From the NCBI GenBank assembly GCA_036567965.1, contig DATCTN010000015.1:62001-126000 (forward strand): a stretch of 64,000 bases of DNA, in the 5' to 3' direction. Position 1 is the stretch's first letter; every line of letters starts with the position of its first letter. Under the pieces are notes generated by a model. The model had not been told where the DNA came from. It made no database searches and was given only the letters and a program-made list of their open reading frames with translations. Below are positions 24,366-28,160 of this stretch, in pieces. This stretch comes from Candidatus Kryptoniota bacterium (GTDB lineage Bacteria; Bacteroidota; Ignavibacteria; Kryptoniales; JAKASW01). A program made the position numbers and the translations under genes.

Positions 24366-25580
24366 CTAAAAAATGTCGAACTGATATATAAACGGTGAAG
24401 GACCCCTGAAAAGTTCACTTATCTTCGCTGCAACTGCGGTATCGCCCCTGGCGAATCCGTATTTGAGGGCGTCCAGTGGATTTAAGAAGCCTGAATAAAT
24501 CTGGGAGAAGATCTCTATGTCTGTTTCGAACTGCGCAGGCTCTCTTCCTTCTTCCACGACAGTCTCACCGGAATGAAGGTGAACTTTGAAGACCCTCGAG
24601 TTAAGCTGAAGGTTGCCGTCGCTCACTTTCAGCACGAAATCCACCTGCGGTTCGAAGTTATGGTTCAACAGCTTCAGTGCAGCCGGTATGTTGATGACCC
24701 TCAGCATAAAGCCCGATGCAAGAGTCGCGAACGATTTGTATTCGAAAAAGAGTCGGTCGAAAGACTGTTCGCGAGGTTCCTTCAGGAAAATATGGACCGG
24801 GTAGTCATAAGGTGCGAGGAACTTGAGTCGCGTGATCTGATCTCCGAGCGCGCCGATGAAGCCCCAGAGCCCGCGGTGAGCGGAAGACTCGAGTCCGACA
24901 AACTCTTTTATGTTTATTACCGGCTCAGATGAAGAATCTTTGTAAAGCTCGTAAACAACGTAACCTTTTATCTCTCCGTCGTCATATACATACGCGTCCT
25001 TGAATTTCGGCAGCACAACGAGATCCCAGAAATTGTCGTTCCGCATTGGTGTGAACCGCCCGTGACGCTCGATGTATTGCTGAAGAACTCTCTTCACTTT
25101 CGATCTGTCCGACTTGACAAACGGGCGAACGTGAGATCGTTCCGCGAATGGGGAAATATTGTTGGGAGAGAATTCATACGAAAAGGTGTTCCCTACGTAA
25201 GCGTATCCGAACTTCTTGTAGAAATGGTGCTTGAAAGGAAAAAGCATCGAGATCGGGTAATCCATTTCATACATTCGCTTCAGAGCGTCTTGCATCAGTG
25301 TTTCGGCGATTCCTCCCCTGCGGGCTTCCGGCTGCACCGCGACCGCGGCAATCCCGGCCATAGGCATTCTCACTCCGAGCGAGCAAACCTCAAACGGAGT
25401 AATTCGCAAACAGCCGAGGACTCCTCCCGCCTTTTCTTCTGCGACGTACATATCTGAAAGCGTGTACCGAGGATTACTTTCGATGCTGACTCGTATGACT
25501 GACGTATCTTCAAGGAAGGACTTCGAAAGAAGTCCTGCAATCGCGTCCGCGTCGCCGCTGTTCGCCTGCCTGATTATCAT
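24366..25580 (-). CDS. Eis-like GNAT acetyltransferase
   Basis: A 404-aa protein built like the Eis (enhanced intracellular survival) family: an N-terminal GNAT domain (1-150; acetyl-CoA loop QPEARRGGIAETLMQDAL, then FPFKHHFYKKFGYAYVG), a central second GNAT-like domain, and a C-terminal SCP2-like domain (about 300-404). The C-terminal residue region ends FIYQFDIF, with the terminal carboxylate used as catalytic base in known Eis enzymes. Eis proteins acetylate amines, including aminoglycosides, but many environmental members have unknown substrates; resistance should not be assumed. The start overlaps the stop of the heptosyltransferase gene by four bases. Confidence 0.87.
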   Translation of the reverse strand: MIIRQANSGDADAIAGLLSKSFLEDTSVIRVSIESNPRYTLSDMYVAEEKAGGVLGCLRITPFEVCSLGVRMPMAGIAAVAVQPEARRGGIAETLMQDALKRMYEMDYPISMLFPFKHHFYKKFGYAYVGNTFSYEFSPNNISPFAERSHVRPFVKSDRSKVKRVLQQYIERHGRFTPMRNDNFWDLVVLPKFKDAYVYDDGEIKGYVVYELYKDSSSEPVINIKEFVGLESSAHRGLWGFIGALGDQITRLKFLAPYDYPVHIFLKEPREQSFDRLFFEYKSFATLASGFMLRVINIPAALKLLNHNFEPQVDFVLKVSDGNLQLNSRVFKVHLHSGETVVEEGREPAQFETDIEIFSQIYSGFLNPLDALKYGFARGDTAVAAKISELFRGPSPFIYQFDIF

Positions 25581-26671
25581 TCCGCCCCCTTGTTTATAGA
25601 AACCGCCTCCGTCTTGTCCAGGATGTCCCTCGTCGCCTCGTACACCCTTTCAACTGTAATTCCTTCTTCCTTTTCTCCGAACGTGCAAATATGCGGATCG
25701 CCAGGACATCTGAGCTGGCAGAACCCGTCAGGCGGAAGTATTACACTCGACCGGTTTCCTTTCGGTCCCCACAACTCCGGCGAGCAAGCCGTGAGCGGAC
25801 AGAACATCGACACTGTTGCGACACCAAGAGCTGCCGCGATATGCATCGGACCGGTGCTCGAGGAAACGAAGACACTTAGACGTGAGATTACTGCCGCCAG
25901 CTTTCGAATCGATAATTCGCCAAACGATGTTGCAATTCTTTTGCCGCTTTGACGGCTGAAATTTTTCTCGAGTGATTTTTCTTCAGGCGAGCCGGTCACA
26001 AGAACCTGGACATCATTATCTGCAAGTTTGTTCATCAACTCAAGATACTTCTCCGTATTCCAATTCGGCGCCGAGCGTCCGCTTCCTGGATGAATCCCGA
26101 CAATTGGCCGTCTGCAATCCAGTCTCTTTTCCTCAAGATATTTTACCGCCTCGTTACGTTCCGATTCATCCAGAAAAATTTCCAGCTTGATCGCTTGAAT
26201 TTTCCCATCGGTATTATTCGTCCCTGCTATTCTTCGGACAAGATCAAGCATATACTCGGATTCGTGGCGAAGAGGATTGTAATTATTTCTCGAGACACCG
26301 TGAGTAAACGTGATAACTTCGTAAAGAATGTGCCCGACCCCCAGACGGTAAGGTATCCCGGCGAGAAAGAGCATGTATGCAAGACGTTTTGTGGGCATCA
26401 GGAGAAGTGCGGTATCGAATTCGTACGAACGAATCACACCGACCTGCCGCCAGAAATCCTGCGGCCTGCCGAGCCTCGCGTCATCGTGAATAATCACGTC
26501 TATATTCGGATTTCGATATAGAAGCGGGCTCGTATATGAAGATACCATCGCTCCAATGAACGCTCCGGGGATCAAAGTCCTCAGCGATCGGTAAACCGGA
26601 GTGGACAGGACAACGTCACCGACCCTGTCAGGCCGGACCACGAGGATTCTCTTGTGATTTCTCTTGAACAA
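25577..26671 (-). CDS. Glycosyltransferase family 9 (LPS heptosyltransferase-like)
   Basis: GT9 enzyme, 364 aa, GT-B fold. N-terminal RILVVRPDRVGDVVLSTPVY is the heptosyltransferase opening, HESEYMLDLV the mid motif, and the C-terminal donor domain carries GIHPGSGRSAPNW and SSSTGPMHIAAALGVATVSMF, where ADP-heptose is bound. Works at the inner-membrane cytoplasmic face in LPS core assembly, in keeping with LptD/LptE here. The start is TTG (MFKRNHKRILVV) with no clear ribosome-binding site. A cysteine-rich stretch near the end (CQLRCPGDPHICTFG) is unusual for the core fold and may bind metal. Confidence 0.9.
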   Translation of the reverse strand: MFKRNHKRILVVRPDRVGDVVLSTPVYRSLRTLIPGAFIGAMVSSYTSPLLYRNPNIDVIIHDDARLGRPQDFWRQVGVIRSYEFDTALLLMPTKRLAYMLFLAGIPYRLGVGHILYEVITFTHGVSRNNYNPLRHESEYMLDLVRRIAGTNNTDGKIQAIKLEIFLDESERNEAVKYLEEKRLDCRRPIVGIHPGSGRSAPNWNTEKYLELMNKLADNDVQVLVTGSPEEKSLEKNFSRQSGKRIATSFGELSIRKLAAVISRLSVFVSSSTGPMHIAAALGVATVSMFCPLTACSPELWGPKGNRSSVILPPDGFCQLRCPGDPHICTFGEKEEGITVERVYEATRDILDKTEAVSINKGAE

Positions 26672-26793: not shown

Positions 26794-26822
26794 TTGCATT
26801 AAGAAAGGGGCACTTTTATATT
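26794..26822 (+). promoter_or_regulatory. Near-consensus sigma-70 promoter
   Basis: TTGCAT (26794-26799), a spacer of exactly 17 bases, and TATATT (26817-26822). The predicted transcript starts near 26829, not at the peptidase gene but just ahead of two hairpins and a terminator, so it looks dedicated to a short RNA. Confidence 0.65.
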
Positions 26823-26828
26823 AAATCG

Positions 26829-26915
26829 AATTTCGACGAGGATCCCACCCTACCCCAAGAATCCTCGGACTATCCGTACCGACCTGCTGGCTACCCCACA
26901 GCGGGTCGGTTTTTT
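26829..26915 (+). ncRNA. Candidate small RNA with two hairpins sharing a CTACCCCA loop
   Basis: A compact unit of about 87 nt: near-consensus promoter, hairpin 1 (CGAGGAT 26837-26843 with ATCCTCG 26861-26867, 17-base loop), hairpin 2 (26878-26889 with 26899-26910, 12-bp with one wobble, 9-base loop) and a run of six T. Both loops contain the same 8-mer CTACCCCA (26850-26857 and 26891-26898). C-rich loops are the known seed form by which sRNAs pair with purine-rich ribosome-binding sites. No protein is encoded. It could instead be an attenuated leader for the M24 peptidase starting 67 bases downstream. No known family recognised. Confidence 0.6.
26878..26915 (+). terminator. Intrinsic terminator of the candidate small RNA
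   Basis: 12-bp GC-rich stem (ACCGACCTGCTG with CAGCGGGTCGGT, one T-G wobble) and an immediate T6 tract at 26910-26915. Textbook rho-independent form on the plus strand, 66 bases ahead of the M24 peptidase start. Confidence 0.85.
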
Positions 26916-26981
26916 ATTGTGGTACACTCTCTTTGAATCAACCGCTTAATTTTTATAACTTGTGCAAAACCCGGAGCATTC

Positions 26982-28160
26982 ATGGACCTCCAGAAGATTC
27001 AGACAGCAATCGGTGCCGCCGGACTCAACGGCTGGCTCTTTTTCGATTTTCACAACCGCGACCACCTCGGACTGAAGATACTCGGGATCAGCCAGAAGGG
27101 GCTCGCTACACGAAGATGGTACTATTACATTCCCGCAATCGGAGAGCCGGTCAGGCTCGTCCACAGGGTAGAGCCCGAAAAGCTCGACCATTTGCCGGGA
27201 AAGAAATTCAGCTACTCTAGCTGGCGGGAACTCCACGCGAACCTGAAAGAGATCCTAGGCAAGCCTTCAAGGATAGCGATGCAGTATTCACCACAGAACG
27301 CTATCCCCTATGTTTCAATAGCTGACGGCGGAACCATAGAACTGATAAAGGGAATGGGCCATGAAGTGGTTTCTTCCGCGGACCTCATACAGCAGTTCGA
27401 AGCAGTACTCGGCGAAAAGGCAATAAGGTCGCACATCAAAGCGGGAAAACTGATCGACAAGATACTCGACGAAGCATTCAACGAAATCCGCAAATCTCTC
27501 ACGACAAAGAAATACAAGACCGAATATGAAATTCAGCAATTCATCTGGAAGAGGTTTGCGGCAAACGGCCTGGTCGCGGACGAGCCGCCGATCGTCGGAG
27601 TGAACGATCATCCCGCGAATCCGCACTTTGCCCCGACGCCGAAGAATTCCAGGAAAATGAAACCGGGGGACAAATTTCTCATCGACCTCTGGGCGAAGCT
27701 CGACAAGCCCGGCTCGATATACTATGACATAACATGGAGCGCGTTCATCGGGGACGATCCGCCGGACGAGTATGTCAAATGTTTTCACGTCGTGCGTGAC
27801 GCGCGGCGAGCGGGATTCAAATTCCTTAACGATCGACTTGCGGATGGAAGGCAGGTCGCCGGCTGGGAAGTGGATGACGTTTGCAGAAACGTGGTCAAGC
27901 AGAGCGGGTACGGTGAGTACTTCACTCATCGCACCGGTCACTCCATCGGCGAAGAAGTTCACGGCAACGGCGGGAACATAGACAATTTCGAGACACAGGA
28001 CACGAGGGTCATAGTGCCAGGTTGCCTATTCTCTCTCGAGCCGGGAATTTACATGCAGGGCAAGATGGGAGTTCGTTCCGAGTTGAACGTGTATGTCGGC
28101 GACATGCAGAAAGCGTCCGTTACCGGCCGCGAGCAGGCCGAGCTTGTCCTCATCCACTGA
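26982..28160 (+). CDS. M24 family metallopeptidase (Xaa-Pro aminopeptidase-like)
   Basis: Cytoplasmic two-metal peptidase of 392 aa. The N-terminal creatinase-like domain covers about 1-165; the pita-bread catalytic domain then carries the ligands: Asp in KFLIDLWAKL and in YYDITW, His in HRTGHSIGEEVHGNG (about 317-331), Glu in SLEPGIY (about 353) and Glu in VRSELNVYV (about 366). All five are intact. Family members remove an N-terminal residue preceding proline. It precedes a DPP-IV-type peptidase by 47 bases, so the pair probably degrades proline-containing peptides together. Confidence 0.92.
   Translation: MDLQKIQTAIGAAGLNGWLFFDFHNRDHLGLKILGISQKGLATRRWYYYIPAIGEPVRLVHRVEPEKLDHLPGKKFSYSSWRELHANLKEILGKPSRIAMQYSPQNAIPYVSIADGGTIELIKGMGHEVVSSADLIQQFEAVLGEKAIRSHIKAGKLIDKILDEAFNEIRKSLTTKKYKTEYEIQQFIWKRFAANGLVADEPPIVGVNDHPANPHFAPTPKNSRKMKPGDKFLIDLWAKLDKPGSIYYDITWSAFIGDDPPDEYVKCFHVVRDARRAGFKFLNDRLADGRQVAGWEVDDVCRNVVKQSGYGEYFTHRTGHSIGEEVHGNGGNIDNFETQDTRVIVPGCLFSLEPGIYMQGKMGVRSELNVYVGDMQKASVTGREQAELVLIH

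Follow-up and report, generated by a model that had tools for sequence, protein, structure and literature searches.

The unit between positions 26,794 and 26,915 of the window (the whole 64-kb stretch of DNA analyzed here) is almost certainly a stand-alone small RNA gene equipped with both a promoter and a terminator, and its product is very probably a new regulatory RNA acting through two identical C-rich loops. The RNA apparently represents a new family of a known functional kind, preserved almost unchanged throughout a genus whose orthologous proteins are ~70% identical and which belongs to an uncultured Bacteroidota-related lineage without Hfq (absent from 13/13 genus genomes). No described small RNA for this lineage was found in the literature.

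The features of the gene and its neighbors are collected in Table 1. The preliminary description had reported a promoter with ideal spacing and a non-coding unit ending in a terminator, and both reports were confirmed: the TTGCAT-N17-TATATT pair is present and its elements are conserved across the genus, the terminator (26878-26915) is formed by a 12-bp stem followed by T6, and the unit is not spanned by any conserved reading frame. In the -35 region, CTTGCATT is kept in 12 of the 13 copies amid diverging surroundings (the ectopic copy described below has CTTGCGTT); the -10 element is TATATT in most copies and TAAATT in three, whereas the spacer between the two elements is variable in sequence. 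All copies carry T6 or a longer T tract at the 3' end. The TTGCAT/TATATT pair is absent from the list returned by a scan for TTGACA/TATAAT promoters. Nonetheless, the form TTGnnn-N16-18-TATATT is probably an ordinary promoter form in the genus, since it is about ten times denser in intergenic than in coding DNA (200 vs 20 per Mb in 1.53 Mb from five genus genomes); in the same sample, the only occurrence of TTGCAT-N16-18-TATATT is that at the small RNA.

Table 1. Features of the small RNA gene and of the neighboring genes in the window
Feature	Position	Strand	Details
Glycosyltransferase family 9 gene, divergent upstream neighbor	25577..26671	-	PF01075, E = 4.9e-22
-35 element TTGCAT	26794..26799	+	part of the TTGCAT-N17-TATATT promoter
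-10 element TATATT	26817..26822	+	17 nt from the -35 element
Small RNA, predicted ~88 nt	26828..26915	+	5' end predicted from the distance to the -10 element
Hairpin 1	26837..26867	+	7-bp stem, 26837-26843 with 26861-26867; from the fold
Hairpin 1 loop	within 26837..26867	+	17 nt, C-rich, CCCACCCTACCCCAAGA
First CTACCCCA	26850..26857	+	unpaired in loop 1
Linker GACTATCCGT	26868..26877	+	invariant in 13/13 copies, mostly unpaired
Hairpin 2, terminator stem-loop	26878..26910	+	12 bp, 9-nt loop GCTACCCCA; from the fold
Second CTACCCCA	26891..26898	+	in the terminator loop
Intrinsic terminator T tract	26910..26915	+	first T also base-pairs
M24 metallopeptidase gene, downstream neighbor	26982..28160	+	PF00557, E = 6.9e-37

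In other species (loci L002-L012, compared with L001), approximately 10 extra bases (GAGTTTAATA) follow the -10 box, ahead of the conserved core. This insertion is a near-repeat of the 5' end of the small RNA, which may be longer at its 5' end in the species that carry it.

The small RNA folds as two hairpins with an energy of -32.8 kcal/mol (z = -4.06, with none of 200 shuffled sequences equally stable), whereas the opposite (-) strand reaches a z-score of only -2.35. The two hairpins with an identical loop 8-mer, noticed at first inspection, are borne out by this fold, as both copies of CTACCCCA are unpaired with probabilities of 88-100% in the fold ensemble. Within the 64-kb window the octamer is confined to the small RNA loops, with one copy in each (two occurrences, compared with 0.58 expected). 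On both strands of 1.53 Mb from five genomes it was found 18 times, and 10 of these occurrences are the two loops of the small RNA; the same sample contains no other terminator with a CTACCCCA loop on a 7-bp stem.

A BLAST search against 61 genomes identified the small RNA in 12 of the 13 genus genomes with 95-100% identity. In the thirteenth genome (G005) the contig breaks inside the neighboring M24 gene, of which it retains the C-terminal half alone, so that the site of the small RNA is unassembled there. Of the 88 positions, only about five vary, and a single 1-nt insertion was observed. Pairwise comparison of 11 syntenic copies gave mean identities of 98.5% for the RNA, 33% upstream of it, and 36% downstream of the terminator, and the median identity of orthologous proteins between sampled genus genomes is 69-72%. 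Hairpin 1 is invariant at every base, the sole exception being one nucleotide inserted into its loop in the ectopic copy. The pairing in hairpin 1 is consequently supported by fold energy alone; of the compensatory stem changes that the preliminary description had proposed to look for, the terminator stem provides one, from U-A to A-U. The 5' segment and the linker, both mostly unpaired, are as invariant as the loops. The statement that the stems differ holds between the two hairpins of one RNA and fails between species, and the accompanying claim that the loop but not the stems is maintained is contradicted by the alignment, in which stems and linker are equally invariant. As judged from these sequences, the invariance of stems and linker is more than loop pairing alone would require.

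As far as sampled, the family appears to be restricted to one genus. The window has no family match in Rfam 15, where the best sub-threshold scores are 12-15 bits, in agreement with the earlier impression that no known family fits; the RNA is apparently undescribed. The 6C family, whose 6C/B11 members are known from Actinobacteria, gave no Rfam match up to E = 10, and the sX13 covariance model (RF02232) scored 13.1 bits (E = 1.9) against a gathering score of 50. A covariance search of 294 class and 396 phylum genomes, of the kind proposed in the preliminary description, returned weak matches outside the genus, none of them a credible homologue. The best of these matches (G379, E = 9.5e-5) falls within a reading frame of 451 codons and is devoid of twin loops, and in the other outside-genus alignments displayed stem pairs are broken or a loop is lost. 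Candidates from two motif scans were likewise rejected: matches to two CTACCCCA copies followed by a T run in 84,980 species genomes, when from outside the genus and folded, did not present the octamer in two separate loops, and a looser scan of the class yielded, beyond the genus copies, sequences judged by eye to be unrelated. Plasmids, phages, and viral contigs contain no match to the small RNA.

The architecture resembles several described systems. The sX13 RNA of Xanthomonas is ~100 nt long, intergenic, strongly structured, and Hfq-independent, with CCCC in each apical loop, and its targets carry GGGG near their start codons (PMC3771888). The present RNA shares the strong structure, the similar length, the C-motif in apical loops, the intergenic location, and the probable independence from Hfq; it differs in having two stems rather than three, and no clear enrichment of GGGG near start codons is seen in the genus. 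The mycobacterial RNAs B11/6C use C-rich loops, including that of the intrinsic terminator, to pair with G-tracts near ribosome-binding sites (PMC12395582). Two C-rich loops with one in the terminator are also found here, but B11 has three stem-loops, and the C runs of B11/6C comprise 6-9 nt. Of the two stem-loops with at least six C by which 6C/B11 RNAs are recognized, the small RNA has the two stem-loops, and the longest C run in either of its CUACCCCA loops is four. In Listeria, the C-containing motif of LhrC1-5 is redundant, being found both in loop A and in the terminator loop, and either copy can bind the same mRNA (PMC4132741). The similarity to LhrC lies in a repeated C-containing motif with one copy in the terminator loop, whereas the LhrC motif is UCCC with U-runs in an unrelated sequence present in five copies per genome; in the small RNA, the linker holds no motif copy, and most genomes have one gene. 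The presence of its own promoter and terminator, together with a repeated unpaired C-rich motif that includes the terminator loop, and the match of this architecture (twin C-rich loops, one in the terminator) to sX13, 6C/B11, and LhrC are the reasons for its assignment to the C-rich-loop type.

By analogy with these systems, we lean toward a trans-acting, Hfq-independent sRNA of the C-rich-loop type, a reading that is somewhat favored rather than established. A housekeeping-type promoter would drive transcription of an ~88-nt RNA, and hairpin 2 would terminate it. In the predicted fold, both hairpins expose the same unpaired CUACCCCA, one copy being in the terminator loop, and either copy could pair loop-first with G-rich (UGGGGU-like) stretches of a few mRNAs, so that translation or stability of these targets would be blocked without Hfq. 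If such pairing is confirmed, the twin C-rich-loop design has arisen independently once more, in addition to Xanthomonas, mycobacteria, and Listeria, which would argue that Hfq-independent sRNAs have repeatedly converged on it.

The searches for complementary mRNA sites pointed to no regulon, and no conserved mRNA target was found by start-codon motif, RBS-zone, or duplex-energy searches. The sequence TGGGGTAG is no more frequent than a reversed-pattern control in the 18 nt before ATG, and an apparent depletion of this sequence disappeared after correction for oligonucleotide composition (obs/exp 0.9). With simple ORF calls and approximate starts, which make the target statistics less powerful, GGGGT was found in the -20..-4 zone of 4 of 1301 genes, compared with 9 and 2 in upstream zones; the counts for GGGG, also subject to approximate start codons, are 41 of 1301 genes, and 30 and 40 in the upstream control zones. 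Pairing with GGGGU-type ribosome-binding sites, as originally suggested, is so far not supported, as neither UGGGGUAG nor GGGGU is enriched at start codons. In duplex energies with start regions, for which start codons are again approximate, the real loop 1 performs no better than shuffled loops and loop 2 performs slightly better. A search for the complement of loop 1 with up to two mismatches revealed no regulon. Approximately 10 copies of UGGGGUAG are present on both strands of 1.5 Mb, which is about the number predicted from composition; hence a regulon based on the full-length octamer must be small, or only the ACCCC core pairs.

The most serious rival is a protein-binding RNA, in which the two identical loops would act as a bivalent binding site and thereby titrate or scaffold an RNA-binding protein, e.g., the single RRM protein of these genomes. 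We regard this as possible, although unlikely. It is a serious rival because the conservation covers the entire small RNA, with stems and linker no more variable than the loops, and two identical loops suit bivalent binding; the lack of enrichment of complementary mRNA sites is also in its favor. CsrA is the classic titrated protein, but a CsrA-titrating RNA was rejected as an explanation, as the loops contain no GGA and CsrA was not found in the window's own genome (G000) although the small RNA is present there. Exactly one RRM-domain protein is encoded in each of the 13 genomes (e.g., G000:C10:52166-52375), and we know of no RRM protein that binds the loop motif. In Bacteroides, the RRM protein RbpB binds sRNAs, including FopS and GibS (PMC11697453). 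These are, like the RNA studied here, small RNAs of a Bacteroidota species; however, the described RbpB ligand FopS has another design, with a single-stranded 5' seed and one terminator hairpin, and no Rfam match to such families was obtained. The stronger version, in which the RNA is chiefly a bivalent protein binder whose CUACCCCA loops recruit or titrate, e.g., the RRM protein so that many mRNAs are controlled indirectly, appears less probable still. If true, a lineage without Hfq would employ a Csr-like principle in which C-rich loops serve as the code.

The pairing determinant could also be the invariant 5' end or the linker (GGACUAUCCGUA) instead of the C-rich loops, given that both segments are mostly unpaired and as invariant as the loops. 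We consider this improbable, as two identical exposed octamers are unlikely to arise by accident, even though loop function is itself putative.

The genomic context bears on a further reading, in which the element is a cis-acting leader or attenuator of the downstream M24 peptidase gene. In most genomes the small RNA sits between the divergent glycosyltransferase-9 gene and the M24 gene, which follows it in nearly all genomes, a point in favor of this reading. However, the distance to the M24 start codon varies between 51 and 227 bp depending on the species, and relatives in the same order have the M24 gene without the small RNA. Moreover, one genome (G002, 5% contamination) contains a second copy (L099, 9425-9513, on G002:C81) on a contig without an M24 gene, where it adjoins mercury-resistance genes; the contig encodes MerR, MerT, a redoxin, an AAA/DUF4143 protein, and a fragment of a Crp-like regulator. 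Besides the insertion in loop 1, this copy has a C-to-A change in loop 2 that results in ATACCCCA, and it retains promoter and terminator. It suggests either mobility of the RNA cassette or an origin of the contig in another species. The small RNA is considered an autonomous gene because the ectopic copy keeps its signals without M24 and the order relatives have M24 only. No antiterminator was seen, since the 5' arm of the terminator pairs only weakly with the RNA upstream of it (-5.3 kcal/mol, compared with -22.8 kcal/mol for the terminator). The leader reading is already largely refuted by the variable distance, the ectopic copy, and the order relatives, and we hold it to be very improbable.

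That the element is merely a double terminator ending a longer read-through transcript, the alternative named in the preliminary description, is rejected as extremely unlikely despite the textbook terminator in hairpin 2, given the conserved promoter directly before the element, the ectopic copy, an upstream gene that points away in nearly all genomes, and loops and linker that a terminator would not hold invariant at ~70% protein identity.

Two observations concern other regulators of the genus. CsrA was found in 10 of the 13 genomes, and the window's own genome, where it was not found, is 100% complete. The 6S RNA is a single hairpin of ~185 nt with an open center. Identity of the small RNA with 6S RNA (RF00013) was rejected, as length and fold differ and a separate 6S candidate is present in 5 of 6 genomes tested. 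The candidate in the window's own genome (G000:C31:482914-483127) scores 37.5 bits, which is below the Rfam gathering score, and those in related genomes score up to 49.8.
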